From positions 1 through 64,000 of the forward strand of contig JAGVAP010000120.1 of assembly GCA_020060215.1 (NCBI GenBank): DNA of 64,000 bases, in the 5' to 3' direction. Below, piece after piece: positions 20,871 to 43,300 of this stretch. This DNA comes from Deltaproteobacteria bacterium (GTDB lineage Bacteria; Desulfobacterota; DSM-4660; Desulfatiglandales; HGW-15). Every line of letters starts with the position of its first letter. Position 1 is the stretch's first letter. Position numbers and translations under genes: made by a program. Below the pieces are notes generated by a model. It ran no database searches. It saw only the letters and a program-made list of their open reading frames with translations, and was not told the origin of the DNA.

Positions 20871-21740
20871 ATGGTGGTGAGGACGATGGGCGGATGGTCG
20901 GCTTCGATTTTTTGCCGGGGTTTCTTGGCGGGGTGGATTTTGTTTCTTGTAGCCCCGTCAACCGGGCTTGCCGATGAACTGAAAAAGATCGAGGACAATT
21001 CCTTCCTGATCGAAGAGGCCTACAACCAGGAGCCGGGGGTTATCCAGCATATCCAGTCATTCCAGTACATGAGGGATAAACAATGGGCGTACATCTTTGT
21101 CCAGGAATGGCCGGTCCCCGGCCGAACCCATCAGTTCTCCTATAACATCCCCGTATTTCGTTTGGATCTCGAAGACGAAGGGAGAAGCACGGGCATCGGC
21201 GACGTGCAGTTGAACTACCGTTACCAGCTTGTTGACAAAGAGGATTATATGGCGATGGCGCCCCGGCTCTCCTTAATCCTCCCTACCGGCGACTACCATG
21301 AGGGCTTCGGCAGAGGCGCGGTCGGGTACCAGACCAATATCCCTCTCAGCCTGACACTTTCGGAGAAATGGGTGAACCACTGGAATGCAGGGATGACCTT
21401 CACCCCGAATGCCGAGGGAAGTGAAAGAGGGAAGAGAGATACCCTCGATTTCAATGCCGGGACCGGTTTCATTTATCTTCTCGCAGATAATATCAACCTC
21501 ATGCTGGAGACGGCATGGAATGCCGCCCAGTCTGTGGATGGGGGGAGGGAACATTCCCTGTTCATCAACCCGGGCTTTCGTTTCGCAATCAACTTCGACT
21601 CTGGACTCCAGATTGTCCCCGGAATAGGCTTTCCCATCGGCATCGGACCTTCGAGCGGGGAGTACGGTATATTTTTCTACCTCTCTTTTGAACACCCCTT
21701 CCGCTTTCTTTATCAAAAAAAACGTTTGGCCAAGCCGTAG
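20871..21740 (+). CDS. MetA-type outer-membrane protein, second copy
   Basis: Start placed at ATG 20871; an ATG at 20886 with GAGGA close by is possible, and the frame is open to 20757. The product (289 residues) has a signal peptide ending VAPSTGLADE, then repeated amphipathic strands (GDVQLNYRYQLV, APRLSLILPTGDYHEGFG, FINPGFRFAINFDSGLQIVP). The family resembles the protein at 9494-10267. Role in metal or organic solute passage is inferred from the neighbourhood. Confidence 0.8.
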   Translation: MVVRTMGGWSASIFCRGFLAGWILFLVAPSTGLADELKKIEDNSFLIEEAYNQEPGVIQHIQSFQYMRDKQWAYIFVQEWPVPGRTHQFSYNIPVFRLDLEDEGRSTGIGDVQLNYRYQLVDKEDYMAMAPRLSLILPTGDYHEGFGRGAVGYQTNIPLSLTLSEKWVNHWNAGMTFTPNAEGSERGKRDTLDFNAGTGFIYLLADNINLMLETAWNAAQSVDGGREHSLFINPGFRFAINFDSGLQIVPGIGFPIGIGPSSGEYGIFFYLSFEHPFRFLYQKKRLAKP

Positions 21741-21892
21741 CGTATCCCCGACTTCTTCATCCGGTTTCTGAGCGTGCTCGGTTTCATTGCGGGCAGCCGC
21801 CCCGCACCATTTCTTCCCTCGATCCTTCCGCCGGACAATAAATGACCAGGAAAGCGGCCGTCGCCTCAGACAGGATTTTTTTCTTGCGCAAA

Positions 21893-21914
21893 ATACTATA
21901 GGGGGGTATACTAT
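21893..21914 (+). promoter_or_regulatory. CsoR/RcnR-type operator
   Basis: ATACTATA-GGGGGG-TATACTAT: A/T-rich arms around a run of six G, the arrangement bound by RcnR/CsoR/DmeR-type repressors. It lies 26 bases before the dmeR start, so it probably gives autoregulation and metal induction of dmeR-dmeF. Confidence 0.8.
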
Positions 21915-21939
21915 TAAAAATGCTCATGGGAGGCGGCTC

Positions 21940-22218
21940 ATGTTTCACACCGTACGCGATCGGAAGAAGCTGCTCAATCGCATCCGCCGCATCCGCGGGC
22001 AGCTCGAAGGAATCGAAAAGGCGCTGGAGGATGACAAGGACCCTTTCCTTGTGCTTCAGACCGCAGCCTCCTGTCGCGGCGCGCTGAACTCGCTCATGGC
22101 CGAGATCATCGAGGGGCATATCCGGTTCCACGTGCTGGATCCAACACGCGCGGCGTCCTCCGAGCAGGTCGAAGCGAGCCAGACGCTCATCGACATCGTT
22201 CGAACATTTCTGAAGTGA
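21940..22218 (+). CDS. dmeR: metal-sensing repressor, CsoR/RcnR family
   Basis: Start at ATG 21940, with GGGAGG upstream. A 92-residue all-helical repressor (RKKLLNRIRRIRGQLEGIEK, LQTAASCRGALNSLMAEIIE, GHIRFHVLD). The conserved Cys (AASCRG) and the following His residues (EGHIRFH) fit the W-X-Y-Z metal site of the Ni/Co-type sensors. Only 12 bases separate it from the CDF gene, matching the dmeRF arrangement known in rhizobia. Confidence 0.88.
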   Translation: MFHTVRDRKKLLNRIRRIRGQLEGIEKALEDDKDPFLVLQTAASCRGALNSLMAEIIEGHIRFHVLDPTRAASSEQVEASQTLIDIVRTFLK

Positions 22219-22230
22219 ATCGAGGAGTCA

Positions 22231-23211
22231 ATGACACACCATACGGATACCGCGGCCTTCGGCCACGATCATGTCTTCGGGCAGGATGAACGCCGGTCCG
22301 GCGAAACGCGCACGCTTGTCGTCATTGCCGTCACGGCCGTGACCATGATCCTGGAGATCGGCTCGGGGCTCGTATTCGGCTCCATGGCGCTCCTGGCAGA
22401 CGGCATGCACATGGGCAGCCACGCATCGGCGCTGGCGATCTCCGCATTCGCGTACTACTACACGCGCCGCCATGCCGACGATTCGCGGTTCAATTTCGGC
22501 ACCGGCAAGGTCAACTCCCTGGCCGCCTTTGCCAGCGCGGTCATGCTCGTCCTCTTCGCGATCGTCATGGTGTGGGAGAGCGTCGAGCGCTTCATCTCGC
22601 CGGTCCCCATCGGGTTCAACCAGGCGATCTTCGTGGCGGTTCTAGGCCTGGTCGTCAACGGCATCTGCCTGCTCGTCCTGGGCGGAGACGAACACTCCCA
22701 TGGCGAGCACGACCATCCTCACGGCCTCGAACATCATCACGGCGAACATCACCATCATGAAAGCAGGCACAGTGACCACAATCTTTGGTCTGCTTATCTC
22801 CACGTGGCGGCGGATGCCGTGACCTCGGTCCTCGCCGTCATCGCCCTTTTGGGGGGGAAGTACCTTGGACTGAACTGGCTGGATCCTTTCATGGGGATCG
22901 TGGGCGCCGCGCTCGTGGTCAACTGGTCGAGGGGACTGTTGCGGTCTTCCGCGGCGGTTTTGCTCGACATGCAGCCCTCGGAAAAGGTGAGGGAGGGTGT
23001 CAGGAACGCTCTTGAGTCGAACGGCGATCGTGTCTGCGACCTCCACGTCTGGTCCGTCGGACCGGGTATCTACGCAACCTCGATTGCCCTGGTCTCTTCC
23101 CATCCGATGGATACGGAGGAGTACCACAAGCGGTTGCCTAAGCGATTGGGAATCGTGCACGCAACGGTGGAGAAGCGCCATTGCCCGGCCGAAGCAGAGT
23201 GCGCTGCGTAA
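22231..23211 (+). CDS. dmeF: CDF-family Ni/Co exporter (DmeF type)
   Basis: A 326-residue CDF transporter with six helices (ALLADGMHMGSHASALAISA in TM2, H-x3-H-type site; AYLHVAADAVTSVLAVIALL in TM5). A His-rich loop of more than 25 residues (EHSHGEHDHPHGLEHHHGEH) sits between TM4 and TM5, a hallmark of DmeF. C-terminal domain VCDLHVWSVGPGIYATSIAL. Coupled to dmeR. Confidence 0.92.
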   Translation: MTHHTDTAAFGHDHVFGQDERRSGETRTLVVIAVTAVTMILEIGSGLVFGSMALLADGMHMGSHASALAISAFAYYYTRRHADDSRFNFGTGKVNSLAAFASAVMLVLFAIVMVWESVERFISPVPIGFNQAIFVAVLGLVVNGICLLVLGGDEHSHGEHDHPHGLEHHHGEHHHHESRHSDHNLWSAYLHVAADAVTSVLAVIALLGGKYLGLNWLDPFMGIVGAALVVNWSRGLLRSSAAVLLDMQPSEKVREGVRNALESNGDRVCDLHVWSVGPGIYATSIALVSSHPMDTEEYHKRLPKRLGIVHATVEKRHCPAEAECAA

Positions 23212-26315: not shown

Positions 26316-26720
26316 TCAAGCCAGCCATTCTATCCTGACCTCGTTTTCAAGCTTCTTAAACTCCGGGTCGCCCGTCACGACCTTTGTGTCCAGTCGATTG
26401 GCGAGGGCCGCAGCAAAGCAGTCGGCGTATGCGATTGGATGGCTCGCCTTGAGTCGTCCCGCAAACACGGCGAGGTCCTTGTCTGCGTCCACGACCGATA
26501 TGGGAAGCTGCTCGATGATGGTCAACGTCTCGTCGGCCTTGTCTGGCCCCCGTTCGCGAAGGGCGCTGTAATAGATCTCACCCAGGTTTACCGCACAGAG
26601 GTGGAGGGTAGTCTTCCTTGCCCGGGCAGCCTTCAGGAGTTCTTCTACCTTTTCGGCCTCCGGCTCCTGTTCGAAGTGGGCAATGAGGGCATAGCTGTCC
26701 AGGACGTATCCCTTATCCAC
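26316..26720 (-). CDS. vapC: PIN-domain toxin, VapC family
   Basis: A 134-residue PIN-domain RNase toxin: YVLDSYALIAHFEQEPEAEK with the first catalytic Asp, GEIYYSA with Glu, and ADCFAAALANRLDTKVVTGD with the later acidic residues. It overlaps the antitoxin gene by eight bases, the usual coupling. Confidence 0.9.
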   Translation of the reverse strand: MDKGYVLDSYALIAHFEQEPEAEKVEELLKAARARKTTLHLCAVNLGEIYYSALRERGPDKADETLTIIEQLPISVVDADKDLAVFAGRLKASHPIAYADCFAAALANRLDTKVVTGDPEFKKLENEVRIEWLA

Positions 26721-26952
26721 GCCCTGCCTCCTCTTTTCGATCCTTGAGAAGGGCCTTCAGGATGGATGTCTTCCCCTTGAGCATCCCTTTGGACGCTTTG
26801 ATAGGGTCATCAGGAAGGGGTCTGAGAAGGATGACGCCCTCGTCTCGTCCCTCGGACACGCTCACCCTCGTCCCTTTGGTGATCCCGTATTTCTTTCTCA
26901 ACTTTGCGGGTATGATCACTTGACCCTTTACAGTAGCCTTTACAATAGGCAT
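26713..26952 (-). CDS. vapB: AbrB/MazE-type antitoxin, VapB family
   Basis: A 79-residue swapped-hairpin DNA-binding protein (VKATVKGQVIIPAKLRKKYG, TKGTRVSVSEG) with a C-terminal toxin-binding tail. Likely autorepresses the vapBC pair. GAGAGGC precedes the ATG. Confidence 0.88.
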   Translation of the reverse strand: MPIVKATVKGQVIIPAKLRKKYGITKGTRVSVSEGRDEGVILLRPLPDDPIKASKGMLKGKTSILKALLKDRKEEAGRG

Positions 26953-27250: not shown

Positions 27251-28066
27251 TCAATGGCGGTTGATGGGCACCCGGCCGGGGTCTCCTACGAAGGGCAGGA
27301 TGAGAAGCCATGGCAGGGTCAGCCTCTTGGAGTTCCGGAGATGGGCAAGCCCGATGGTCATCCCGAGGTGCCCCTGTTCCGGCTGGGCCTTGTAGGTGCC
27401 GAACAGCCGGTCCCAGCAGGGCAGATTGAAGCCGTAGTTGCTGTTCGTCTCCCGGATGATGACGGAGTGATGAACCCGGTGCATGTCGGGAGTCACGACG
27501 AGCATTCGGAGAATCCGATCCAGGCCTTCCGGCATGCGGAGGTTGCTGTGATTGAACAAAGTGGTGGAGTTGAGCGCAACCTCGAAGATGAGGACGGCCA
27601 GGGCGGAAGGCCCAAGTGCGGCCACGGCCGCGATCTTGATGGCTAGAGAAAAGAGGATCTCGATGGGGTGGAAACGCATCCCGGTAGTCACATCGATGTC
27701 GAGGTCCGAGTGGTGCATCATGTGAAAACGCCACAGGAGCGGCACCGCATGATGGAGCACGTGCTGAAGATAGATCACGAAGTCCAGAATGACGACCCCG
27801 ACGACCACCTCAATCCAGTAGGGAAGTTCCAAGTTGTTGAGCAACCCCCATTGGCGCTCCTGAGCGATGAGGGCCATACCGACCGGAACGACCGGGAAGA
27901 CCAGGCGGACCGAGAGGGGATTGAGGGCGATGATCACGAGATTGGCAAACCAGCGGCCCTTCCTGGATACGGTCAGGGTTCGTCTCGGGCTCAGGATCTC
28001 CATGACCGCTACGAGGGCAAAAGTGCCCAGGAAAAATGCAAGGCGTATCTTGGCTTCACCGATCAC
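27251..28066 (-). CDS. sterol desaturase/fatty-acid hydroxylase family protein
   Basis: A 271-residue membrane protein from a GTG start. The di-iron histidine boxes are present: QHVLHH, FHMMHHSDLD, NHSN and HRVHHSVIIRETNSNYG. At least four hydrophobic helices precede or flank them. The family hydroxylates or desaturates lipids using O2 and an electron donor. The substrate is not known. Its presence implies at least occasional oxygen exposure. Confidence 0.9.
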   Translation of the reverse strand: MIGEAKIRLAFFLGTFALVAVMEILSPRRTLTVSRKGRWFANLVIIALNPLSVRLVFPVVPVGMALIAQERQWGLLNNLELPYWIEVVVGVVILDFVIYLQHVLHHAVPLLWRFHMMHHSDLDIDVTTGMRFHPIEILFSLAIKIAAVAALGPSALAVLIFEVALNSTTLFNHSNLRMPEGLDRILRMLVVTPDMHRVHHSVIIRETNSNYGFNLPCWDRLFGTYKAQPEQGHLGMTIGLAHLRNSKRLTLPWLLILPFVGDPGRVPINRH

Positions 28067-28163: not shown

Positions 28164-28802
28164 TCAGGGTTTTCCTCCGCGAATAACTACAAATGAGCCC
28201 TCTCCATAGCCCGGCTTGGGTGGATCGGCCACCTTCATTTCCGCAGGGGCTTTGAAGACCGTCTGTCGAATTGAGAAATCTTCAAAACCGGCTTGCTTCA
28301 ATTGACGCAGGAGTTCATCCGCGGACAGGAATGTGGCGTTCCTGTAGAAGGGATTGTCCTTCTTATTTGCTTCGTAGATCTTGCCAAGTGGACTCTCGCG
28401 GTCTATGAAGCCGATCAGAATCTGTCCATCTTCTCTGAGGACCCGGCAGGCTTCCTTGAGTGCAGCGGGCACGTCATAGAGGAAACAGATCGTGGTAATC
28501 ATGAGAAGAACATCCAGGCTCCCCTGCTTGAAAGGGATATCTTCGCCTACCCCCAGAACTACCTCTATACCACGCTTGGATGCGGCCTTGCCCATATTGT
28601 AGGATGGGTCCACACCGAAACGCACGCCCAGGGAGGCGGCAAAGCGGCCCGTTCCCACCCCGATCTCCACTCCTTTTTCGAATCTCGGAAGCAGCGCCCG
28701 AACCGCCTCGAGTTCCGATTGAAAGACAGGCAAATTCCTGTCGAACCAGGAGTCATACCTGTCGACATGACGGGCAAAGGGATCAGTCCTGGACACTCTC
28801 AA
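28164..28802 (-). CDS. SAM-dependent class I methyltransferase
   Basis: A 212-residue methyltransferase: motif I GVEIGVGTGRFAASLGV, acidic residue in FGVDPS, motif II region VGEDIPFKQGSLDVLLMITT, and EACRVLREDGQILIGFID after it. It is of the methyltransferase-11 type. The C-terminal part (SFVVIRGGKP) is intact. No neighbour tells the substrate. Confidence 0.88.
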   Translation of the reverse strand: MRVSRTDPFARHVDRYDSWFDRNLPVFQSELEAVRALLPRFEKGVEIGVGTGRFAASLGVRFGVDPSYNMGKAASKRGIEVVLGVGEDIPFKQGSLDVLLMITTICFLYDVPAALKEACRVLREDGQILIGFIDRESPLGKIYEANKKDNPFYRNATFLSADELLRQLKQAGFEDFSIRQTVFKAPAEMKVADPPKPGYGEGSFVVIRGGKP

Positions 28803-28907: not shown

Positions 28908-29609
28908 TCATCCATCCAGGGCTCCCCCTTTTGGCGTCTTCAACTTCCCGACAATCTTGGGAATGAAAAAAGAAAAGACAAAGAGCGCTATCGAGAAGAA
29001 GACCTGAGGGCTCAGTAACTCGCCCCACTCGCCCATTAGCCAGACCTGTTTCAGCGTACCCACGAAAAAGGTGAAGATGAAGGTCCCAACGAGAATCCCC
29101 AGTCCTGTTCCGGCGAAGTAATCCCGGAACCGCACCTTGGTCAGCCCCATGCCGAAGTTTAACGGCGTGAAAGGAAAGTACAGGAGACGCAGGTAGAGGA
29201 CCGTGGCAAAGCCGTTTCGTTCAATGGCATCATCGTATTTCCTCAGTTTGTCTCCGATCAGAGAAGCGGCGAAGTCCCTGCCAAGAGTGCGTCCGATAAG
29301 AAATGCCGCACTCCCTCCGAGCATGGCGCCAAGCCAGACATAGACAAAGCCCCAATAGGCCCCGAAGAGGATCGCCCCAATGGCGCCCAAGACCGTGCCG
29401 GGAACGAACATGCAGACGCATGCCGCATAGATCAACACAAAGGCAAATGGAGCCCAAGAACCCGCGGATTCCAAAAAGCGTCCCAGTCGATCAGCGCTCA
29501 GGAATCCCATGACCGGAGTAAATCGAACCACCAGAAAGGCGGCGATGATGAACCCCAATAAAAGGGCGGCTTTTATTGCCCCTCTTCGGGGGACGTTTCC
29601 TTCACGCAT
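28908..29609 (-). CDS. TVP38/TMEM64 (SNARE-associated) membrane protein
   Basis: A 233-residue protein with about six membrane segments and the family core (PGTVLGAIGAILFGAYWGF, GSAAFLIGRTLGRDF, RLLYFPFTPLNFGMGLTKVR). Related to DedA proteins; transport of lipid or small solutes is suspected for the family. It is the last gene of the minus-strand selenoprotein operon, 37 bases after the preceding stop. Confidence 0.88.
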   Translation of the reverse strand: MREGNVPRRGAIKAALLLGFIIAAFLVVRFTPVMGFLSADRLGRFLESAGSWAPFAFVLIYAACVCMFVPGTVLGAIGAILFGAYWGFVYVWLGAMLGGSAAFLIGRTLGRDFAASLIGDKLRKYDDAIERNGFATVLYLRLLYFPFTPLNFGMGLTKVRFRDYFAGTGLGILVGTFIFTFFVGTLKQVWLMGEWGELLSPQVFFSIALFVFSFFIPKIVGKLKTPKGGALDG

Positions 29610-29646
29610 TGGGTTTTCTCAAATCCTGAATCCAGGGGCCGTCCTC

Positions 29647-29925
29647 TTACGGGCGTGCTGTTCTTCGGATCTTTGCCTGAATGGCCGATTCAAGCGCATC
29701 CAAGGAAATATCGGCCTTTTCCACCAGCACCTCTTCCCCCACCATGATAGCCGGCGCAACAGGAAGGCCCAGCTTTGCATAGGCCTCCGATGCGTATTCT
29801 TCCCTCGGCTTGGAGACGACGTCTACATCGATCCCGTATTTCTCACCCAGACCGGGCAACATCTCCTTGAAGTGCATTCAGGTTTTTCCGTTCGGTTCAT
29901 TGAGAAAAAATTTGACCTTCAACAT
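29647..29925 (-). CDS. thioredoxin-fold selenoprotein A (in-frame UGA)
   Basis: Read from ATG 29925 through a UGA at 29878-29880 the gene gives 92 residues: strand LKVKFFLNEPNGKT, Sec16, helix MHFKEMLPGLGEKYG, strand IDVDVVSKP, then a cis-Pro loop LPVAPAIMVGEEVL. This is a glutaredoxin/thioredoxin fold with one Sec at the active-site place and no resolving Cys. The next gene upstream is a paralogue with UGA at exactly codon 16. A hairpin with loop GGUCU starts 18 bases after the UGA. Automated callers would start at 29877 and lose the active site. Sec is inferred, not proven. Confidence 0.8.
29843..29859 (-). promoter_or_regulatory. SECIS-like hairpin of selenoprotein A
   Basis: UUGCCC-GGUCU-GGGUGA: six pairs and a five-base loop. 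The loop GGUCU equals the one in the E. coli fdhF SECIS recognised by SelB. It begins 18 bases after the UGA. Confidence 0.7.
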
Positions 29926-29948
29926 CTCTTCGCTCCCTTCTCTACTTT

Positions 29949-30272
29949 TTATGCGTTCTTTCTCAAGAGACGGCCCAGGAACCCGCGTTTCTGCTCCTCC
30001 ACTGGGGGGAGCCCCAGGCCCTTTCGGATAGCGGCCTCGAGCTTTTCCTCGTTCACGTCGGAACCCTCGACCAGGATCTCTTCTCCCACCATCACCGCCG
30101 GGGCGACGGGCAGATCCAACTCGAAGTATTCATCCGTCTGATACTGGTCTTTCGGCTTCGAGATGGTCTCGATCTCTATCTCGTATTTTACGCCCAACCT
30201 GGGCATCATCACCTTGAAATGTTTTCAGGGTTTCCCGTTGGGTTCGTTGAGGAAGAATCTTACCTTGAGCAT
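29949..30272 (-). CDS. thioredoxin-fold selenoprotein B (in-frame UGA)
   Basis: Read from ATG 30272 through UGA 30225-30227 the gene gives 107 residues: LKVRFFLNEPNGKP, Sec16, KHFKVMMPRLGVKYE, IEIETISKP, LPVAPAVMVGEEILVEG, and a basic tail ending LGRLLRKNA. It is about half identical to selenoprotein A with the UGA in the same codon. No Cys is present at all, so Sec would be the only thiol-like residue. It starts 19 bases after the rhodanese-CcdA gene. A 6-bp hairpin with loop AGGUU follows the UGA at 18 bases. Confidence 0.8.
30190..30206 (-). promoter_or_regulatory. SECIS-like hairpin of selenoprotein B
   Basis: AUGCCC-AGGUU-GGGCGU: six pairs (one U-G), five-base loop with GGU. It begins 18 bases after the UGA, the same geometry as in selenoprotein A although the bases differ. 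Confidence 0.68.
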
Positions 30273-30291
30273 AAGTTCGTTTTCTCCTTTT

Positions 30292-32043
30292 TCATCTTGA
30301 AGTTTTCTTGATCTCGGCCATGCGGCCGAGGAACTGATCGGGGGGAAGATAATCCACCAGCCGCAAATCCCGCCTCTCATTCCCGTTTCGGTCTATGAAG
30401 ACAACCGTCGGAACCCCCTTGATTCCGTAATCCCGAAGCAATCGTTCGTGTACCGGGTCGCCTCCCCTGGTTACATCCACCTTGAGCATGATGAAGTCAC
30501 CTCCCGCCTGGTTTACGATGGATGCGTCATGAAAGGTGACCTCTTCGAGCTCCCGGCACGGCGTGCACCATGTGGCGTAGAAATCGATAATCACCGGCAC
30601 CCCTTTTCTTTGGGCCTCCTGCAGCAGCCCTTCCGAGTAGGGCTTCCAGGCGACGCCGGGGCCTTTCACAGCCCAGGAGGCGACCAGGAAGGTGGCGAGA
30701 ACCAGGCAGGCCACCCCGACTCCTGATTTGAGCCAGGGGAAGGCCCGGAAATTGGCCTGGTTCTTATCGATCCATCCAAGATGGAGCCCGGCAGCCAAGG
30801 CGACAGCGGCAAGGAGGATAGTCGCCAAGGACCCCGGGAGAATCGGTCTTGTGAAGTGCACCGCCATGCCGACCAATACCCATCCCATGAGCTTTCTCAC
30901 CCAAATCATCCACCCGCCCGAGCGGGGGAGCTTCTCGATCTGACCTGAAAACATGGCAAGGAGAAAAAGCGGCACACCAAGGCCCAGGCTCAGGGTGAAG
31001 AATATGATAAATCCGAGCCACGGGCTTCCCATGCCGGCAACCCAGGTGAGGAGCCCCAGCACAAAGGGACCGATGCAGGGCGCCGCGACCACGCCGAGGG
31101 TCAGCCCCATGAAGAGGCTTCCGAAGTAGCCGGTGTAGGACTTTGAGGCGGCGCGGGTGAGCCCCATCGGGAGGCGCAGTTCCCAGAGTCCAAAGAGGCT
31201 CGATGCAAAGAGAATCAGAATCATCGCCACAACGATCAGGACGATCGGGTTCTGGAGCATCGCACCCATCAGCCCGCCTGTGAGGGCGGCGAATACCCCC
31301 AGCACGGAATTGGTCACAGAAAGACCGAGCATATAGGACAAACCATGCGCTACCAGGTTGCCCCTGCCCTGGCCTCCCTTTGCGGCCTGTCCGCCGAAGT
31401 AGGAGACCGTAACGGGGATCAGGGGATAGACGCAGGGCGTGAGGTTCAGGGCCATGCCGCCTGCAAAAATGCCTAGAAGCGTCCAGATCATGGCCCAGCC
31501 ATACAGGGGCCGTGCCGTTTCAGGCTCAGGCGCGGATGAGGCAAGTCCCGCCGGGGCGCTTTCGACAGGCATACCCTGCGCCTGCCATTCAGGGTATCCT
31601 TTGGGGTCGCGATAGACGTTCTTGTAACCGAGCTTTACGGCCACCCGGGCCGCCGAGTCGCTTCGGACTCATGTCAGGCCCGCTCAGTAGAATATGATCG
31701 TACGGTTTTTATCCGGTCCTAAGAGTGCTTCGAGCGCCGAACCCTTGCGCCACCTGGACCACCAGGTGGGCTCCATGGGGAAATAGACAGCGCTCTTGAT
31801 GTGGCCTGTGCGGTACTCCCATTCCTGTCGCGTATCCACCAGGAGGAGACCCGCAGGGTCCTTCCGATATAGATCACTTAGATCCTCCGTGCTCATGATC
31901 CGGTATCCTCCGGCTTTTGCTTCAGCCAGAACATCAGCCCATGTAGCGTCCTTGGGGGTGACCGCCCGGCTGGTAAGCCACAGGGCGCCTGCCGTTATGA
32001 GAACGGCCGCAGCTGCAAAGATAATGGATCTTTTTCCATCCAT
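30292..32043 (-). CDS. rhodanese-CcdA-thioredoxin fusion, two in-frame UGA
   Basis: Read as one frame of 583 residues from ATG 32043 (which overlaps the previous TGA). An N-terminal anchor (residues 5-24) is followed by a rhodanese domain (LLVDTRQEWEYRTGHIKSAV) whose active loop reads IIFY-Sec120-AGLT-Sec125-VRSDSAA; both UGA stand where Cys occurs in relatives. Then a DsbD/CcdA membrane domain (about 185-430; NLTPCVYPLIPVT, AAPCIGPFVLG) and a thioredoxin domain with WCTPC near 492. The layout suggests electrons pass from the cytoplasm to a periplasmic seleno-rhodanese. Conventional calling splits it into two genes at 31684 and 31644. Confidence 0.82.
31637..31653 (-). promoter_or_regulatory. 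SECIS-like hairpin of the rhodanese fusion
   Basis: GCGGCC-CGGGU-GGCCGU: six pairs, five-base loop containing GGU. It begins 15 bases after the second UGA (31669-31671) and 30 bases after the first (31684-31686). Confidence 0.6.
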
Positions 32044-32741
32044 CACTTTTCCTTTCCTTGTCCGATTCCCGGCAATGGCCGCAGGGACTGTCGATGAAAG
32101 GTCAAGGCCTTCTTCGGACATGTCTCCACACAATAGGAACATTTGAGACAGTCACAGTGATTAACCACACCCGCCTCTCTATAGGAGCCGGGATAGATCT
32201 GCATACGGCACACCTTCTCGCAATTCCCGCAACTCGAGCAGGACTGGTCCACTCTCAGCAGGCTCTTGCCGCGACCAAGCCAGTTCGCCATTGTTCCCAT
32301 GGGGCAGAACATGCACCAGATGCGTTGATTGTAGATCGTTCCCAGCGTCAGCCCCACAATGGTAGTAACGGTCAGAATCATCACAAAGGGGGCCCCCATC
32401 CGATAGAAATCTCCCCACACGGGCTCCAGGTTCACGGCAAGCATAATCATCAAGACCGCCAACCAGAACAACCGAAACGAAACGCTTCGAAAGAAGCGGG
32501 GCACCTTTGCATTGCGGCTCAGGCGGCTGAGGTACTTGTCCCAAAAGCTGCCCCTCGGGCACATCCAGTCACACCAATTTCTTCCCTTGGCAAAACCGAT
32601 CCCCATGGCCATCAGCATGCAGAAAAGGAGAAAGTAGCCCAATGGATGGTAGAACCATCCCCCGATCAGCAGGGCTACGAAAAAAAGGCCGTTGATTATC
32701 TGTAAGGGACCGTTGCCGAGCGCTGCAGTTCGAGCACTCAT
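32043..32741 (-). CDS. NapH/YccM-like 4Fe-4S membrane protein
   Basis: A 232-residue membrane ferredoxin. Helices at about 15-50, 85-105 and 120-140 carry CDWMCPRG and CMFCPMG on the cytoplasmic side. Two C-terminal ferredoxin clusters follow (CSSCGNCEKVC; CDCLKCSYCVETCP). Such proteins pass quinol or cytoplasmic electrons to periplasmic partners. GGAAGGAGG precedes the ATG. The TGA/ATG overlap with the rhodanese-CcdA gene argues for a direct redox partnership. Confidence 0.88.
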   Translation of the reverse strand: MSARTAALGNGPLQIINGLFFVALLIGGWFYHPLGYFLLFCMLMAMGIGFAKGRNWCDWMCPRGSFWDKYLSRLSRNAKVPRFFRSVSFRLFWLAVLMIMLAVNLEPVWGDFYRMGAPFVMILTVTTIVGLTLGTIYNQRIWCMFCPMGTMANWLGRGKSLLRVDQSCSSCGNCEKVCRMQIYPGSYREAGVVNHCDCLKCSYCVETCPKKALTFHRQSLRPLPGIGQGKEK

Positions 32742-32745
32742 AAGC

Positions 32746-33204
32746 TTACCTCCTTCCTAATCTCCCCTCTCTTCTGAGCTTCGAAAGGAGAAAGTTAGCA
32801 CCCCTCATGGAGAGCCCCAATTTTCGGGCAAGCTCTCCAGGGTCAAGGGAGCCGTGGGTCTTGATGACGGAAGTGACCTCCTCTTCCAGTTCCTCCAGCC
32901 AGTCCTCAAAGAGCACGAGAATCTCCGGGTCCGTGATAGCCATCAGCTGTTTGGACTGGGCAACCTTGTCCACGAGGCTTTGGCACATCTCTGTCGGGTC
33001 GACACCTTCGCCCATGCACTCGGCCAGTCAGAGATGAACGAGGCTCGATACCTTGTCCCCTCGCGATTCCCCGGTGAGCTCCATGAGAAATCTGGTGCGG
33101 GCCTCTTCGTCCAGGAGCGGGAAGAGCGCTTTCAATCCTTTGGCCATCTCAGCCGAAGCCTGTTTCGGGTCCATCCGTGTAATCAATTTCAGTATCTCTT
33201 CCAT
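32746..33204 (-). CDS. small helical protein with in-frame UGA
   Basis: Start at ATG 33204 with AAGGAG seven bases upstream. Read through UGA 33028-33030 it gives 152 residues: N-terminal helices (ILKLITRMDPKQASAEMAKG), SSLVHL-Sec59-LAECMGEGVDP, a linker, then a winged-helix-like end (GSLDPGELARKLGLSMRGAN). Frame and helical periodicity continue smoothly across the UGA. A hairpin with loop AGGUG follows. No family recognised. Sec is plausible, but a plain stop followed by a second gene at 33015 cannot be ruled out. Confidence 0.65.
32996..33013 (-). promoter_or_regulatory. SECIS-like hairpin, small helical protein
   Basis: GGGCGA-AGGUG-UCG(A)CCC: six pairs with one bulged A and a five-base loop containing GGU, starting 14 bases after the UGA. 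Weaker than the other three. Confidence 0.45.
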
Positions 33205-33215
33205 GGGGGGCTCCT

Positions 33216-33575
33216 TCAAAAGGTTTGCCGCGAGGACAAGAGATCGCTTGCCAAGGCGTTCAACATGCGAACCACATCCATGATTCTCGGTTCGGAGAGC
33301 TCGTAGTATATAAATGGCCCGATCCGCTCGATCTTGACCAGCAGAGACCGTTTTAACTCCTTAAGATGGTGAGAAACGAGAGGTTGAGAAAGCCCGAGTT
33401 CCTCAACAATGCTGGTAACCGACTTCTTCTCACGGCTGACGCATGCGAGGATCCGCAACCGGTTTTCGTCGGAAAGGCTCTTGGAGAGAAAGGCCACGGA
33501 ATGAAACTGGGGATCTTCAACCACTTGCGATGCTTTTTCCGGGGATACTTGTACGTTTCTCAATGATTTTTTCAC
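33216..33575 (-). CDS. ArsR-family repressor of the selenoprotein operon
   Basis: A 119-residue winged-helix repressor (SKSLSDENRLRILACVSREK, TSIVEELGLSQPLVSHHLKE, GPFIYYELSEPRIMDVVRML). The GTG at 33575 with GGGGAAGG is chosen; an in-frame ATG at 33662 would place the start inside the A/T palindrome that looks like its operator. One Cys (ILACV) lies near the recognition helices. It starts the run of same-strand genes to 28908, 11 bases before the small helical protein. Its inducer could be a thiol-reactive metal, metalloid or persulfide. Confidence 0.85.
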   Translation of the reverse strand: MKKSLRNVQVSPEKASQVVEDPQFHSVAFLSKSLSDENRLRILACVSREKKSVTSIVEELGLSQPLVSHHLKELKRSLLVKIERIGPFIYYELSEPRIMDVVRMLNALASDLLSSRQTF

Positions 33576-33660
33576 GGCTGCCTTCCCCAAAGGGTTCTTT
33601 CCTGCCGTTGCCCGGCAAGCGGAGGAGCAGAAACGCGGGTTTGCCGAGCCGGACAAACAC

Positions 33661-33672
33661 ATAAATATTTAT
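33661..33672. promoter_or_regulatory. A/T palindrome, probable ArsR operator
   Basis: ATAAATATTTAT, a perfect palindrome within an A/T-rich stretch (33661-33690) in otherwise G+C-rich DNA, about 85 bases before the chosen arsR start. ArsR-type repressors commonly bind such sites. Confidence 0.5.
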
Positions 33673-33812
33673 TTATATATCTATTTGGAAAATGTCAACA
33701 GGGATCGTTCAAGAAATGTCGGCAGAAAGTTTGGTGGAGGTCGGGGGGAGCGAGTCACTGAAAAGGGAATGGCTCCCTGGGATGATCCGGTGCGAGACCC
33801 TCGAGGCGTGTG

Positions 33813-36676: not shown

Positions 36677-37342
36677 TCAGCAGTAACTCCTGAATACGAT
36701 GAACCTGCGGATCAGGTAGGTCAGCGGAACGCTCCAGATATGGACCAGCCTCGTAAAAGGGGAAAACCCCAGGATGGCAAGACCGCTGATCACATGCAGC
36801 TTGTAGCTGAAAGGAACCGGAACCATGAGCGCAGGTTCGGGCCTGAGAATCACGACGCTTCGGATCCAGGGGGCGATGCTGTCAAGCACGTTGTAATGGC
36901 CGAGTATTACATTGTAGAGACCGGTGCCGATGGCGATGAAGAGCAGAATGAGCGTCACGAACTGGTTCACGGTCGTGGCCGCCCGGACCCGATGGTGGGT
37001 GAACCGCCTCTTCAAGAGAAGAAATATCCCTGCGAATGCAGCGAGACCGATCAGCAATCCTCCGCCCAGGGCTATTCGGATGTGGAGCTCGCTGCCTACC
37101 CTTGCGAGATCGTAGAGGCTCTGAGGGATGAGCATTCCCCCTGCGTGTCCGACAAGGGTCAGGAGGATCCCCCAATGGAAAAGGGTGATCCCCACCTTGA
37201 GACCCTTCCTGTCCAGGATTTCGCTCGAGCGCGCGGCCCAGCCGTAGCGGTCCGTGGCGTAGCGGTATGAATGGCCCAGGACAAAGACGGTGATCACGAT
37301 ATAGGGATAGACGGCGAAGGCCAGGGTATGGATTGCGTCCAT
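36677..37342 (-). CDS. narI: nitrate reductase gamma subunit (cytochrome b)
   Basis: Start at ATG 37342 with GAGGGG upstream. A 221-residue membrane protein with five helices and heme-ligating His residues (VLGHSYRYATDRYGW, FHWGILLTLVGHAGG, YKLHVISGLAILGFSPFTRL VH). It takes electrons from quinol and passes them to NarH. 123 bases after narJ. Confidence 0.9.
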   Translation of the reverse strand: MDAIHTLAFAVYPYIVITVFVLGHSYRYATDRYGWAARSSEILDRKGLKVGITLFHWGILLTLVGHAGGMLIPQSLYDLARVGSELHIRIALGGGLLIGLAAFAGIFLLLKRRFTHHRVRAATTVNQFVTLILLFIAIGTGLYNVILGHYNVLDSIAPWIRSVVILRPEPALMVPVPFSYKLHVISGLAILGFSPFTRLVHIWSVPLTYLIRRFIVFRSYC

Positions 37343-37465
37343 GTCATTCCCCTCAACTCGGGAATCGTTCGTGAGACGTGTACATATTAAGGTAATTGGA
37401 ACCCTTGATCCGCGATCGTTTTCAGTGAAACACGGGCCGATTGAATGCAACGTGAGGGCCAACCC

Positions 37466-37969
37466 TCATTTCGGGCAAAAGAATTCCGCGACCAGGCCGA
37501 GCAACCCGGCGTAGCTGCTCCCCTGCTTCTTTAATCTGCCCGCCAGTCCATGGATCTCTTCACGGTAGTCGTTCATGATCGCTCCAGCCGCCCCGTCGGG
37601 GCAGACCGCCAGGAATTCGAGGACAAGGGGCAGGTAGTCAGGCAGCTCCCCGGTGCTCATCTCAAAGCCGGCAGCCTGGTACAGGCCGGAAAGAGCCGCC
37701 AGCGCCTTGCCCCGCTCGCGATCATCCCCCTGCTTGTGATGGCTCAGGTTGAGACACATGGAGGGGTCCAGATCAAGAATTCGGGTGTACTCCTCCTGCA
37801 CATCCAGAAGCGGTGTCCGCCTGAGGTAATCCAGGAACCCCGAGCACACCTTCCTTGCGCCCTCCTGCTCCAGCTCGGAGACCGCCGCTTCCACCTCGCT
37901 CAAACCCTCAATGAGGTCCTCGTCGGGATACTGGAGAAGAAGCGAAATCATTTTTGGAAATGGATCCAT
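37466..37969 (-). CDS. narJ: nitrate reductase assembly chaperone
   Basis: Start at ATG 37969; the longer frame runs into repeat DNA. A 167-residue all-helical NarJ/TorD-type chaperone (ISLLLQYPDEDLIEGLSEVE, EEYTRILDLDPSMCLNLSHH, LPLVLEFLAVCPDGAAGAIM). Needed for molybdenum cofactor insertion in NarG. It is separated from narH by two repeat blocks and a nuclease gene, which is unusual. Confidence 0.88.
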   Translation of the reverse strand: MDPFPKMISLLLQYPDEDLIEGLSEVEAAVSELEQEGARKVCSGFLDYLRRTPLLDVQEEYTRILDLDPSMCLNLSHHKQGDDRERGKALAALSGLYQAAGFEMSTGELPDYLPLVLEFLAVCPDGAAGAIMNDYREEIHGLAGRLKKQGSSYAGLLGLVAEFFCPK

Positions 37970-38003
37970 TTTGGCCGGGGAGACTTCTCTGAAAGTAAAA
38001 GAT

Positions 38004-38204
38004 TGGATTCCCGCCAAGAAACTGCGGGAATGACACGAAAAACACTTCGTCGTTCCCGCAGTCTTTAGGCGGGAACCCAGTCCTGGACGTGTCGCGTGGA
38101 TTCCCGCCCAAGGAATTGCGGGAATGACGCACCAGACAACCAAATGCAACGTCGTTTCCGCGAAGCCTGTCCCCGCAGGATGTAGGCGGGGAGCGGGAAC
38201 CCGG
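38004..38204. repeat. palindromic intergenic repeats, block 2
   Basis: Same family as the block at 36.2 kb (GGATTCCCGCC, GTTCCCGCAGTCTTTAGGCG). It lies between narJ and the GIY-YIG gene. Confidence 0.82.
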
Positions 38205-38220
38205 AACATGGGCGACGTAA

Positions 38221-38514
38221 TCAAGCCACGATTCTCTCATACAGGTCATCCCAATGTGGGTTATCTCTTTCGATAAGCCGGATTTTCCACGCTCGCTCCC
38301 ATTTCTTTATCTGCTTCTCTCTGGTGATAGCCGCCTCCGCACTATCGTGTACTTCATAGTAGACGAGGATCTTTACCCCATATTTCCTTGTGAAGCCCTC
38401 GACAAGATCTTGTTTGTGCTCCCATGTGCGCTTGATGAGATCCGAAGTGACTCCGACATAAAGGGTGCCGTTGCGTTTGCTGGCAAGGATGTACACGTAG
38501 AACTGCCTGCTCAT
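38221..38514 (-). CDS. GIY-YIG nuclease, single domain
   Basis: A 97-residue UPF0213-type nuclease (FYVYILASKRNGTLYVGVTS with the Y-V-Y and Y-V-G strands, DLIKRTWEHKQ with Arg and His, and the late Glu in AAITREKQIKKWERAWK). Palindromic repeats stand on both sides and the whole cassette sits within the nar cluster. Its substrate is unknown. Confidence 0.92.
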   Translation of the reverse strand: MSRQFYVYILASKRNGTLYVGVTSDLIKRTWEHKQDLVEGFTRKYGVKILVYYEVHDSAEAAITREKQIKKWERAWKIRLIERDNPHWDDLYERIVA

Positions 38515-38582
38515 TAGACTTCACCAACGGAATGATCAAGGATCATCCCTCCGAGGGGCTCATGGCGCCCCCTTTGAAATTC

Positions 38583-38894
38583 TGGATTCCCGCCCCCCGC
38601 CTACTGCCTGCGGGGACAGGCTGCGCGCGAATGACACGAAAAACACTCCTTCGTTCCCGCAATTTTCAGGCGGGAACGCAGTCCAAGCCGTGTCGCATGG
38701 ATTCCCGCCAAGGGACTGCGGGAATGACGGACTCATAAAGTTCTGGATCCCTGCTCCCCGCCCCATGCCTCCGCGGGGGCATGCACTGGGCGGGAATGAC
38801 ACGAAAAACACTCCGTCGTTCCCGCACGAAACCGCCCCCTCGTTTCCCAAAACAACACTCCTGTCGTTCCCGCAATCTTCAGGCGGGAACCCAG
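38583..38894. repeat. palindromic intergenic repeats, block 3
   Basis: Same family as the blocks at 36.2 and 38.0 kb and nearly identical over long stretches to the first unit at 36.2 kb (for example GAAACCGCCCCCTCGTTT). It lies between the GIY-YIG gene and narH. Confidence 0.83.
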
Positions 38895-38971
38895 GTTTCT
38901 TGAGCCAGGCCATTGAAGCTCCCCGGCAGCAAACTGCGGGGTTAGCGCTCACTGTTTCGGTTCATCCAGCC

Positions 38972-40384
38972 TCAACCTTCATACCCCCTCGTCCCTTTCG
39001 TGACATGGGCGTCTTCCGTGTATTCTCTCCTGACGGCGGGGATCACATACCGGTCTCCGTGTTTGGCTATGGCCAGGAGCCGGTACATCTCTTCAGCCGT
39101 TCGCAAGTCCAGGCCGGCCTTCTCCAGCCCGGCCGTGTCCGGTTTTCCCTCCACGCGGACCGACCGCATGTGGGCGCGCAAGGCCGTAAGCCGTTCCAGG
39201 GCCAGCCGCACCGGCGCCTCATCGCCGGCGGTCAGGAGGTTTGCAAGGTACCTGAGCGGTATCCTCATTTTCCCCGGGTCGGCCGCTCCGCTCGACTCAG
39301 CGTCGCGGAGCATGGGGCTGAGGGGGGGCACATACCAGACCATGGGGAGCGTGCGAAATTCGGGATGGGGAGGAAAGGCCAGCCGCCATGTCTTGATGAG
39401 CTTGTAGACGGGCGATCTTTTCGCAGCATCGAGATAAGAAGCCGCCACCCCGCCGGCAAGGGCATGCGCAGAGACCTCCGGGTCATGTGGATCCAGGATC
39501 GTCTCCAGGTGACCCGTGTACACGTCCTTTTGGTCCCTGGAGGCCGCCTCCCTGATCCGGTCCGCGTCGTAGAGGACGATGCCGATGTACCGGATGCGTC
39601 CCACACAGGTCTCCGCACAGAGGGTGGGGAGTCCCGCCTCGACCCTCGGGTAGCAGAAGATGCACTTCTCGCTCCTCCCGCTCTTCCAGTTGTAATAAAC
39701 CTTCTTGTAAGGGCATCCCGACACGCAGAAGCGCCACCCCCGGCACCTTTCCTGGTCCACCAGAACGATCCCGTCCTCCTCCCGTTTGTAAAGTGCCCCC
39801 GAGGGGCACGACGCCACGCATGCCGGGTTCAGGCAGTGCTCGCAGATGCGGGGGAGATAGAACATGAAAACATCCCGGAATCGGAGGTACCTCTGGTAAT
39901 CCAGGTCACGGAAGTTGACATCCCCCTTTCCGGTCGCGTTGACACCGCCCAGGTCGTCTTCCCAATTCGGTCCCCATTGGATCCGCATGTTTTCATCCGT
40001 GATCAGGGACTTGGGCCGGATGGAGGGCTGGTGTTTCCTCGTCGGACTGGAGGTGAGCTTCTGATAGTCGTAGGTCCATGGCTCGTAGTAGTCGTCCAGG
40101 CGGGGCATGTCGGGATTGTGGAAAATGGTGAGGAGCTTCCTGGTCCTGCCGCCGGCCTTAAGGGAGATTCTCCCGTCCCCGGATTCCCAGCCGCCGCGAT
40201 ACCCGTCCTGATCCTCCCACCCCTTCGGATAGCCGATGCCGGGCTTTGTCTCGACGTTGTTGTACCAGATGTACTCAGACCCTGCTTTGCCGGTCCAGAC
40301 GTTCTTGCAGGGGATGCTGCAGGTGTGGCACCCGATGCATTTGTCCAGGTTCATGACCATGGCCATTTGGGCCTTAATCCTCAT
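38972..40384 (-). CDS. narH: nitrate reductase beta subunit
   Basis: A 470-residue ferredoxin-type subunit with four Fe-S cluster motifs: CIGCHTCSIPCKNVW, CEHCLNPACVASCP, CRGWRFCVSGCPYKK (Trp giving the [3Fe-4S] type), and CIFCYPRVEAGLPTLCAETC. Length and motifs fit NarH. It overlaps narG by 11 bases and should form the electron wire between NarI and NarG. Confidence 0.95.
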   Translation of the reverse strand: MRIKAQMAMVMNLDKCIGCHTCSIPCKNVWTGKAGSEYIWYNNVETKPGIGYPKGWEDQDGYRGGWESGDGRISLKAGGRTRKLLTIFHNPDMPRLDDYYEPWTYDYQKLTSSPTRKHQPSIRPKSLITDENMRIQWGPNWEDDLGGVNATGKGDVNFRDLDYQRYLRFRDVFMFYLPRICEHCLNPACVASCPSGALYKREEDGIVLVDQERCRGWRFCVSGCPYKKVYYNWKSGRSEKCIFCYPRVEAGLPTLCAETCVGRIRYIGIVLYDADRIREAASRDQKDVYTGHLETILDPHDPEVSAHALAGGVAASYLDAAKRSPVYKLIKTWRLAFPPHPEFRTLPMVWYVPPLSPMLRDAESSGAADPGKMRIPLRYLANLLTAGDEAPVRLALERLTALRAHMRSVRVEGKPDTAGLEKAGLDLRTAEEMYRLLAIAKHGDRYVIPAVRREYTEDAHVTKGTRGYEG

Positions 40385-43300
40385 ACCAGTTCACCTCTCC
40401 CGCCTTTCTTACGATGACGACCTCATCGCGCTGCGCTCCGGTCGGCCCGTAATAATTGAACCCATAGCTGAGTTGCGCATAGCCGCCGATCATCTGGGTG
40501 GGCTTCACCAGGATACGGGTAAGGCTGTTGTGGGTCCCTCCGCGCTTGCCGGAGACCTCGGATCCCGGGGTATTGATCAGCCTCTCCTGCGCATGATACA
40601 TGAACGCCTTTCCCCGCGGGATGCGGTGACTGACGACCGATTTCGCTACGACCGCGCCGTTGACGTTGAAACACTCCAGCCAATCGTTGTCCCTGATCCC
40701 GATGGAGGCTGCGTCCTCGTCGTTGATCCAGATGGCCTCGCCTCCCCGGAACAGGGTCAGCATGATCAGGGTGTCGGAATAGGTGCTGTGGATGGACCAC
40801 TTGGAATGGGGGGTCAGGTAATTCAAAACCAGCTCGGGTGCCTCCGGTCTCTCAAGGCGTGTGGATCCGAGCAGCACCATGTCCAGCGGGGGTCGGAAGA
40901 TGGGGAGCCCCTCCCCGAAGTCGCGCACCCATTCGTGGTCGAGGTAAAGCTGCGCCCGTCCCGTCAGGGTCCGGAAGGGGACCCTCTCTTCGATATTCAC
41001 GGTGAACGGGGAATACGAACGGCCCTCCTCCTCAACTCCGCTCCAGATGGGGGAGGTAATGACCCGTCGGGGCTGCGCATCCAGATCGGCAAACGTGAAG
41101 CGCTCCGCTGCGCGGTCCCTTGCCAGGTGAGTCAGGTCCAGACCGGTCTTTCCGGAGAGTGCGGCCCACGCCTTCACCGCCGATCGGCCGTTGGTCTCCG
41201 GCGAGAGGGCGAGGATCGCCTCGGCCACCTGCCTTCCGGTAGTCAAGTCGGGCATGGACCGGCCGATTCCATCGGATGCGGTCCCAAGTCTTCCCTTCAG
41301 CCACTCGTATTCCTCGGCCGCCTCCCAGGTGATCCCCTTTGCGCCGACACCGAAGCGCTCCACCAGTGGGCCGAGGGCGGTCATCATCCTGTAGGTTTCA
41401 GGGTAGTCCCGGTCCAGCACCTTCAGCGCCGGCATCGTCTTGCCGGGGATCGGCTCCGCGTCTCCCCTCTTCCAGTCCTTCACGGAGGACTGGGCGATCT
41501 CCGAGGGCGTGTCATGCATGAGCGGCGTGGAGACCAGGTCTTTCCGGCCGCCGAGATGGGTCTCCGCCATCTCCGAGAATTTTCGGGCGATCGTCTTGAA
41601 CTGATCCCAGTTGGTCCTGCTCTCCCAGACAGGGTCAATTGCCGGGTTGAACGGGTGGATGAAGGTGTGGAGGTCGGTAGTGCTCAGATCATGCATCTCG
41701 TACCATCCGGCCGCAGGCAGGACCACGTCCGAATATAGAGCGCTCGTGGACATCCGGAGCTCCATGGTGACAAGGAGGTCGAGCTTTCCTTCTGGAGATT
41801 TCTCTCTCCACAAGATCTCTTCGGGCCTCGCTGCGCTCTCTTCGGCGAATACGGCGTGTTCGGCGCCCAGGAGGTGCTTGAGAAAATACTCATGCCCTTT
41901 GCCGCTCGCACCGAGGAGATTGGCACGCCAGAGCAGAAGCACACGCGGAAAATTGTCCGGGTGATCCGGGTCCTCCACGGCAAATCGGACTTCCCCGTCC
42001 TTGATCTTTCCGACCACGCGCTTGATGATCTCTTCTTCGGAACGTGCGCCTTCATCAACGGCTTCTCGGCAGAGGTCAAGCGGGTTCCGGTTGAATTGCG
42101 GGTAGAAGGGGAGCCATCCGAGCCTGGCGGCGACCGCGTTATAGTCGGCGAGGTGGCTCTTGGGCCGGCCGTTTGCCAGTGGTGACGCGATCATTTTGGC
42201 ATCCAGGTTTTCGTACCGCCATTGGTTCGTCGCGAAATAGTAAAAGGAGGTGCCGTTCTGAAACCTGGGGGGCCTGAGCCAATCCAGCGCGAAGGCAACC
42301 GTGGACCATCCGGTAAGGGGCCTTACCTTCTCCTGCCCGACATAGTGGGCCCAGCCGCCTCCACTCACCCCCTGGCACCCGCAGAGGGTGGTGAGATTGA
42401 GGATGGTCCGGTAGATCATATCGCAGTGGTACCAGTGGTTGGTCCCCGCGCCCAGGAAGATCATGGATTTCCCACGGGTCTTCTCGGCATTTTGAGCAAA
42501 CTCCCGTGCCACGCGGACGGCGTCTTCCCGGGGGACGGATGTGATCTTCTCCTGCCACGCGGGCGTATAGGGAACAGGGTCATCATAACCTCCGGCAGTA
42601 TCTCCACCGCGGCCCCTGTCGATGCCGAGGTTGGCGGCCATGAGATCGAAGACCGTGGCCACAATGATCTCGCTTCCATTCGTTCTGATTCGCTTCACCG
42701 GCACCGACCCGGTCTTCGTCCTCGAACCGCCCTCCTCAAAAATTGGGAAGAGGACCGAGACCCACGGCTCGTTTTCCCCCTCGAAGCTCAATAAAGGGTT
42801 CACCGCCTCCTGATTTTCGGAATTCTTCCGATGGAGATTCCAGCACCCTTCCTCCCCCCATCGAAATCCGATGCTGCCGTTCGGGACCACGAAACCCCCG
42901 CCTGCAGCGTCGAAATAGACAGTCTTCCACTCGTCCCCTTCTCCTTTGGCGCCCAAGTCGGATGCGCGGAGAAATCGGCCCGCAACATAGGCTTCGCCCT
43001 TTTTCTCAAGAACCACGGCAAAGGGAAGATCTGTGTAGCTCTTTGCGTACTCGGCAAAATACTCGGACCGGCGGTCCAGGTAGAACTGCTTCAGGATGAC
43101 GAAGGTCATGGCCATGGCCAAGGCCGAATCGGTCCCGGCCTTTGCCGGGAGCCAGGTGTCCGCGAACTTCACGTACTCCGCATAGTCGGGCGCCACCGCC
43201 GCGACCTTCGCGCCGCGGTAGCGGGCCTCCGTGTAGAAGTGGGCGTCGGGGCTCCTGGTCATGGGGAGATTGGTCCCCCAGACGATCATGTAGGAGGCAT

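Follow-up and report, generated by a model that had tools for sequence, protein, structure and literature searches.

The operon closest to the one described here is known as Tso, the "three selenoprotein operon", a name that the review PMC13188914 credits to Haft & Tolstoy 2025 (mSystems 10:e01417-24). According to that review its selenocysteine (Sec, U) motifs are LULAxC in TsoA, UxxxxU in TsoB, which is a rhodanese/DsbD fusion, and NEPxGxxU in TsoC; the parts of the review available to us state no function for Tso. The same parts describe the SAO (Sec-assisted organometallic) system, with a proposed metal link, which shares with Tso the form of a multi-selenoprotein operon but is composed of different gene families. 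Here we analyse seven genes in a 64,000-nucleotide stretch of DNA from a Deltaproteobacteria bacterium, a probable sulfate reducer (contig JAGVAP010000120.1, positions 1 to 64,000; this whole stretch is called the window below). Judged by its sequence, the locus is a member of the already named Tso kind, and its five in-frame UGA codons, spread over four genes, very likely encode Sec. We further consider it rather probable that, in this tso operon with its UGAs read as Sec, TsoB passes electrons from thioredoxin to an outer Sec pair.

The assignment follows from NCBIfam models, all matched above cut-off, which identify the first open reading frame (ORF) as TsoR, the second as TsoA, the fourth as TsoB and both the fifth and the sixth as TsoC. 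The original prediction, made from the DNA letters, held that this gene set was unknown as a system, a claim that does not survive since NCBIfam and the accessible parts of PMC13188914 already name Tso. Its seven-gene, same-strand run with short gaps was, by contrast, exact in its coordinates: the genes extend from 33575 to 28908 on the minus strand, with intergenic gaps of -1 to 37 bases (11, 4, -1, 19, 23 and 37 in order of transcription). The genes and their UGA codons are as follows.

33216..33575, minus strand: tsoR, ArsR/SmtB-type regulator with a GTG start (NF045707, 157 bits against a cut-off of 115)
32746..33204, minus strand: tsoA, LULAxC selenoprotein with one UGA (NF045695, 231.7 bits against a cut-off of 170)
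33028..33030, minus strand: UGA of tsoA (predicted Sec59), an in-frame TGA aligned in homologues
32043..32741, minus strand: ORF 3, NapH-like membrane 4Fe-4S ferredoxin protein with a Fer4_5 domain and four hydrophobic segments
30292..32043, minus strand: tsoB, rhodanese/DsbD fusion with two UGA (NF045694, 1017 bits against a cut-off of 805)
31684..31686, minus strand: first UGA of tsoB (predicted Sec120), an in-frame TGA aligned in homologues
31669..31671, minus strand: second UGA of tsoB (predicted Sec125), an in-frame TGA aligned in homologues
29949..30272, minus strand: tsoC copy 1, NEPxGxxU selenoprotein with its UGA at 30225-30227 (NF045708, 151 bits against a cut-off of 45)
29647..29925, minus strand: tsoC copy 2 with its UGA at 29878-29880 (NF045708, 133 bits against a cut-off of 45)
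28908..29609, minus strand: ORF 7 (vtt), VTT (TVP38-type) membrane protein (PF09335, 81.7 bits)

Comparison was made with the best 80 of 159 loci retrieved by a scan of public genomes with TsoA; going by title, most come from Desulfobacterota lineages or 'Deltaproteobacteria', one from Nitrospirae and one from Proteobacteria. Cultured bacteria with tso among them include Desulfoprunum benzoelyticum DSM 28570 (L012) and Desulfoferrobacter suflitae DRH4 (L026). Like other Tso operons, that of the window has tsoR, tsoA, tsoB and tsoC above cut-off with identical Sec motifs, and it carries two copies of tsoC, as do many of the 80 loci. It differs in the NapH-like gene placed between tsoA and tsoB, an arrangement seen in none of the 80, several of whose contigs end early (a 41-bit rhodanese match in L067 was not taken as tsoB). 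The product of this gene resembles the NapH/MauN family (TIGR02163) in its membrane segments and 4Fe-4S motifs, but even this best model scores only 58.8 bits against a cut-off of 213. Relatives 71-72% identical to it are present in 2 of the 247 genomes of a phylum sample (L088 and L089). In these two genomes, where no selB was found at E 1e-60, DsrE-like frames recognised by eye lie beside the NapH relative, as does an OsmC-like frame in L089. TsoB, for its part, resembles DsbD in its CcdA-type membrane core, which bears a Cys pair, and in the CXXC thioredoxin domain at its C terminus. The N-terminal domain of DsbD is an alpha domain, whereas that of TsoB is a rhodanese with two Sec positions, and TsoB falls below the curated DsbD cut-off (237.7 against 330 bits).

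Literature searches found nothing on TsoA, TsoB or the operon name beyond the above review, nothing on TsoR and, for the combination of rhodanese, DsbD and selenoprotein, nothing relevant beyond that review. Nor did they find mention of a TsoR box, a TsoR-TsoA module or the NapH-like insertion, the primary Tso paper lying outside their reach. The additions made here are a palindromic box, the co-occurrence of TsoR and TsoA, a predicted helix-turn-helix in TsoA and the NapH-like ferredoxin in the operon.

The in-frame TGA triplets have their lowest coordinates at 33028 (tsoA), 31684 and 31669 (tsoB), 30225 (tsoC copy 1) and 29878 (tsoC copy 2), precisely where the original prediction had placed five UGA interrupting four genes. 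The protein families continue on either side of each, and the interrupted frames contain neither TAA nor TAG. Among aligned matches from the 80 loci the triplet is TGA at 80 of 81 tsoA sites (AGA at the other), at all 72 tsoC sites and, for each of the two tsoB positions, in 47 of 52. Of 51 pieces that span the tsoB loop, 46 have TGA at both sites; the remaining five, scoring 70 bits or less, we judge to be other rhodaneses. The sample of 247 genomes gives the same picture, with exactly one TGA in 20/20 TsoA matches over cut-off, two in 12/12 TsoB genes over cut-off and one in 23/24 TsoC matches, the exception falling below cut-off. Sequencing error was rejected as an explanation because identical UGAs recur across dozens of loci. 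General recoding of stop codons was likewise rejected: TGA is the true stop of tsoR, napH, tsoB and vtt, which bears out the earlier statement that neighbouring genes use UGA as a normal stop.

Homologues with Cys in place of Sec were sought among the best 120 protein-database matches listed for each family. This check, suggested along with the original prediction, gave a divided answer. Two TsoB relatives (P0168 and P0235; 62% and 60% identical over 99%) have Cys at both Sec sites and 23 of the 120 listed TsoC relatives read NEPxGxxC, while for TsoA no Cys form was found among the 120. Trp occupies the Sec site in 20/120 listed TsoA relatives and in 23/120 listed TsoC relatives identified by the NEP motif, with more having NLP, and one TsoC relative (P0358) has Arg. 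The Trp forms of TsoA and TsoC probably stem from short metagenome contigs whose TGA codons were translated with table 4 during gene calling.

Hairpins resembling selenocysteine insertion sequences (SECIS) are predicted shortly after the UGA codons, as listed here for the window.

32995..33014, minus strand: SECIS-like hairpin of tsoA (family-level pairing and fixed codons)
31639..31651, minus strand: SECIS-like hairpin 3' of the second tsoB UGA (conserved, with almost no covariation)
30191..30205, minus strand: SECIS-like hairpin of tsoC copy 1 (folding and family-level pairing)
29844..29858, minus strand: SECIS-like hairpin of tsoC copy 2 (family-level pairing)

Constraint on the nucleotides behind the UGA was assessed through synonymous codon use. 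In tsoA, sequences sharing the amino acid in question almost always share its codon also (GGC 70/70, GAA 79/79, GGT 78/79, GTC 76/76), and the mean synonymous codon entropy is 0.51 compared with 1.42 outside, a value matched by none of 53 other windows. Entropies as low as those at the UGA sites were likewise found elsewhere in 0/395 windows for both tsoB sites and in 0/41 for tsoC. The proportion of paired cells, in structures derived from the very sequences scored, was 99% for tsoA, 96% for tsoC and 97% and 95% for the two tsoB hairpins. One pair of the tsoA hairpin has switched from G-C to A-T, with both partners altered, in 7 of the 58 distinct sequences, a compensating change that disappears once the pairing partner is slid. 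Cells with a double change number 12 in tsoC (0 to 9 after sliding) and 2 and 3 in the tsoB hairpins (0 to 2 after sliding). Pairing and fixed codons support SECIS-like hairpins at the level of the families, with clear compensation in tsoA and tsoC only.

It might be argued that the UGAs are ordinary stops, their downstream halves being separate proteins or pseudogene pieces, the more so as the LULAxC region is lacking from 100/120 listed TsoA relatives and the loop from 117/120 listed TsoB relatives. However, the two sides are conserved jointly in dozens of loci, TAA or TAG is never seen at the positions, hairpins and fixed codons follow the UGAs and full-length Cys forms exist for TsoB and TsoC, so that we regard this explanation as scarcely credible. 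Taken with the Cys forms and the hairpins, the conservation of the UGAs supports the original proposal that four genes here encode selenoproteins, with five Sec codons between them.

As to the machinery for Sec insertion, selB was present in all 30 Tso genomes searched, these being hand-picked from the 80 loci. In the phylum sample it accompanies TsoA in 23/23 genomes, a weak test of the association since 221 of the 247 genomes have selB. One genome (G072) has a UGA-bearing tsoC, yet no selB at E 1e-60. No tRNA was found in the 64-kb window, and the sole Rfam match there is a c-di-GMP-I-GGC riboswitch aptamer at 1245-1321 on the plus strand (RF03167, 65.6 bits against 59).

The anatomy of TsoB comprises, in order, an N-terminal hydrophobic segment, a rhodanese domain with U120 and U125, a DsbD membrane domain carrying C204 and C323, and a thioredoxin domain with the sequence C493-T-P-C496, whose nearest solved relatives are the thioredoxin domains of DsbD. 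The membrane-spanning redox relay first proposed for the gene set is borne out, as anatomy, in the fourth gene, where the rhodanese, the Cys pair of the DsbD core and the CXXC thioredoxin domain are found together. The structural model of TsoC has a thioredoxin fold (predicted local distance difference test, pLDDT, 90; predicted template modelling score, pTM, 0.78) with Sec close to where helix 1 begins, and thioredoxins are its best matches in Foldseek (E 6e-4, template modelling score approximately 0.5). The structural alignment of TsoA drew on 69 of the 77 rows listed, with L081-L087 and the window sequence added, and that of TsoC on 66 of 68 rows and both copies from the window. L004, lacking the TGA, had been dropped from the TsoA list, and a single copy from L072 and another from L056, with two TGA, from the TsoC list.

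TsoR and TsoA nearly always occur together, regardless of the genes that follow them. In the 247 genomes TsoA was found in 23, comprising 19 over cut-off, one below it (G177, 133.9 bits) and three with weak, divergent matches (G092, G245 and G274). At E up to 1e-25, TsoR is present in 21 genomes, 19 of them over cut-off, and accompanies TsoA in 20/20 genomes, namely the 19 over cut-off for TsoA and G177. The only TsoR genome without TsoA (G163) has a TAA inside the gene, and the three divergent tsoA genes adjoin more distant ArsR-type genes. TsoB exceeds its cut-off in 12 genomes, 11 of which have TsoA (G035 being the exception); a further TsoA genome (G112) has TsoB in two pieces, and a partial copy adjoins tsoC in G072, where TsoA is absent. 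TsoC exceeds its cut-off in 16 genomes, 13 with TsoA. At the level of the loci, tsoR (>100 bits) lies immediately 5' of tsoA in 74 of the 76 with room for it, a figure partly due to choice as the loci were found through TsoA.

What lies within 5 kb 3' of tsoA is more varied: across the 55 loci that extend so far we counted tsoC in 41, tsoB in 37, VTT in 21, OlsE-like genes in 11, DnaJ-like in 6, ArsM-like, window-type methyltransferase and SQR-like genes in 4 each, the present NapH in 3, TsoY and TrxB in 2 each, and none of these families in 3. A TrxB gene lies no more than 2.5 kb 5' on the same strand in 8/64 loci. Genome co-occurrence and downstream counts together indicate a nearly constant TsoR-TsoA pair with variable outputs. 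Beyond the operon of the window, at 27251-28066 on the minus strand and 3' of it, is an OlsE/sterol-desaturase-like gene scoring below the OlsE cut-off. As relatives occur near tso in 11/80 loci, and one stands behind a detached VTT gene in G005, this gene may belong to a TsoR regulon.

Such a regulon is suggested by a palindrome, ATATAAAT....ATTTATAT (ATATAAAY-N4-RTTTATAT), learned from regions 5' of tsoR. The motif exceeds 10 bits in 46/76 tsoR upstream regions, whereas three shuffled sets gave 12 or 13 out of 76, the real set having been given 40 rounds of learning and the control 15 rounds on plain shuffles. With at most one mismatch it occurs at 29 sites in 22 of the 30 Tso genomes, and at none in the other 8; the reversed control gives 10 sites. 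Of the 29, 19 fall within approximately 500 bases 5' of tsoR, as is partly expected since the motif came from such regions. Two precede trxB-tsoR-tsoA, one a TsoY-like frame situated roughly 2 kb 5' of tsoA, and one the VTT gene of G005, 69% identical to that of the window and apart from tso; the remaining six are by genes with no visible tso link. The trxB and detached VTT sites are not expected from the source of the motif and support membership of VTT and trxB in the TsoR regulon, although the detached VTT also has a divergent ArsR-type gene next to it. The window itself contains a single match (at most three mismatches; 0.11 expected).

33659..33678, no strand assigned: predicted TsoR box, a palindrome with one mismatch to ATATAAAYNNNNRTTTATAT, 83 bases 5' of the tsoR GTG

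The ArsR-type control envisaged in the original prediction thus gains an equivalog match for TsoR and a candidate operator.

The part played by TsoA is less clear. Its AlphaFold model is all-helical (pLDDT 77, pTM 0.40), the low pTM leaving the packing of its domains unsure. A C-terminal helix-turn-helix, the more confident part of the model, attracts the only plausible Foldseek matches, weak ones that include AsnC, Z-alpha and ArsR proteins. Of 77 sequences, 75 retain Sec59, and the same number holds for Cys63 and for Cys74. Two relatives lacking Sec, L081 (5648-6061) and L082 (7362-7736), have Met, Met and Cys at these positions within a Met-rich N-terminal half and lie beside an ArsR-type gene; a third relative (L083) has Ser at the last Cys position. 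In the vicinity of the L081 gene, ArsP-like permease, XdhC-like and AhpD-like frames were recognised by eye.

TsoA could be a redox enzyme, its link with TsoR merely one of gene order and its helix-turn-helix a protein-protein contact domain. No beta wing follows the helix-turn-helix, the pTM is low as stated, and Foldseek E-values are 0.13 or worse, all of which would suit an enzyme; the co-occurrence with TsoR in every one of the 20 genomes, independent of downstream genes, would not, and we rate the enzyme as a serious possibility with somewhat less than an even chance. More tentatively still, TsoA may be a Sec-based sensor of a transcriptional signal, forming with TsoR a two-gene control module that responds to a soft electrophile (sulfane sulfur, a metalloid or an oxidant) through Sec59, Cys63 and Cys74 and drives, from the shared palindromic box, interchangeable cassettes (tsoB-tsoC-VTT, ArsM-like, SQR-NapH, TsoY and trxB). 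We know of no selenoprotein gene regulator characterised so far. The accessible parts of PMC13188914 include a UxxU protein of the FmdB family, labelled a 'putative regulatory protein'. A search of the literature by a narrow phrase for a transcription factor containing selenocysteine found none. The constant TsoR-TsoA pair, its interchangeable outputs, the common box and the helix-turn-helix of TsoA would turn orphan selenoproteins into a testable proposal as to which of them sense and which act.

For the operon as a whole we infer Sec insertion in the host, cotranscription, repression by TsoR, sensing by TsoA, electron transfer along the path given here and a role for the NapH-like protein. 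TsoR would probably repress the operon from the palindrome at 33659-33678, and TsoA, found with TsoR almost everywhere, would be its Sec/Cys signal-binding partner, through Sec59, Cys63 and Cys74, and not an enzyme belonging to a single pathway. After derepression, electrons would pass from thioredoxin reductase to thioredoxin, to Cys204/Cys323 of the DsbD core, to Cys493/Cys496 of the thioredoxin domain and on to Sec120/Sec125 in the rhodanese loop, where oxidised sulfur-, selenium- or metalloid-thiol species would be reduced in the periplasm. TsoC would serve in the cytosol as a redoxin with a single Sec, while the NapH-like protein may provide an extra Fe-S point of electron entry or exit in this strain.

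Several observations weigh against this scheme. TsoB is present in 12 of the 20 TsoR-TsoA genomes (in one of them broken) and absent from 8, though drafts may miss genes; TsoA and TsoB are therefore not obligatory partners and may not share a single pathway. One full-length TsoB relative (P0180) has Gly and Arg at the two Sec sites, and the failure to find a Cys form of TsoA, reported above, belongs here too. The tsoB hairpin shows hardly any covariation, and folding of single sequences gave z-scores, uninformative in themselves, that are not significant for the window hairpins of tsoA (0.52) and tsoC copy 2 (0.81) and are -0.33 and -0.90 for those of tsoB. The NapH-like protein, missing the TIGR02163 cut-off, is not a curated NapH. 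Finally, TsoR has no well conserved Cys (best column 40/76, next 12/76), which leaves no support for TsoR itself as the reader of a metal or persulfide signal.

Our best guess for the substrate of TsoB is sulfane sulfur. SQR-like genes, below the curated cut-off, in 6/80 loci and the DsrE- and OsmC-like frames by the NapH relatives favour sulfur; ArsM-like genes near tsoA in 7/80 loci (same strand for 5 of 8 copies) favour arsenic. The single ArsM-like example scanned matched ArsM selenoprotein models best, below their cut-offs. Tso might accordingly handle a metalloid or soft metal (As, Hg or Cu), bound by TsoA through Sec59, Cys63 and Cys74. TsoB and TsoC would then reduce the metal or its thiolates, and methyltransferases and permeases encoded nearby would dispose of it. 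An ArsR-type regulator, those ArsM-like genes, the Met-rich L081 and L082 with their last Cys kept, as expected of soft-metal ligands, and the ArsP-like frame near one non-Sec TsoA relative are all in keeping with this. We nevertheless think it unlikely, given the lack of a well conserved Cys in TsoR, the rarity downstream of ArsM-like and window-type methyltransferase genes (4/55 loci each) and the SQR-, DsrE- and OsmC-like neighbours, which indicate sulfur.

A possible further member of the operon in the window follows vtt.

28164..28802, minus strand: class I methyltransferase, 105 bases after vtt

Genes related to it occur near tsoA in 10/80 loci, on the same strand in 6 of the 10.

The wider neighbourhood was surveyed by eye. 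At 26316-26952 on the minus strand, a PIN-domain-like gene and its AbrB-like partner probably form a toxin-antitoxin pair, and frames resembling the narGHJI respiratory nitrate reductase lie a few kb from tso at 36677-44117, also on the minus strand. At 12564-23211 is a metal-efflux neighbourhood with RND efflux-like genes and two cation-diffusion-facilitator-like genes.

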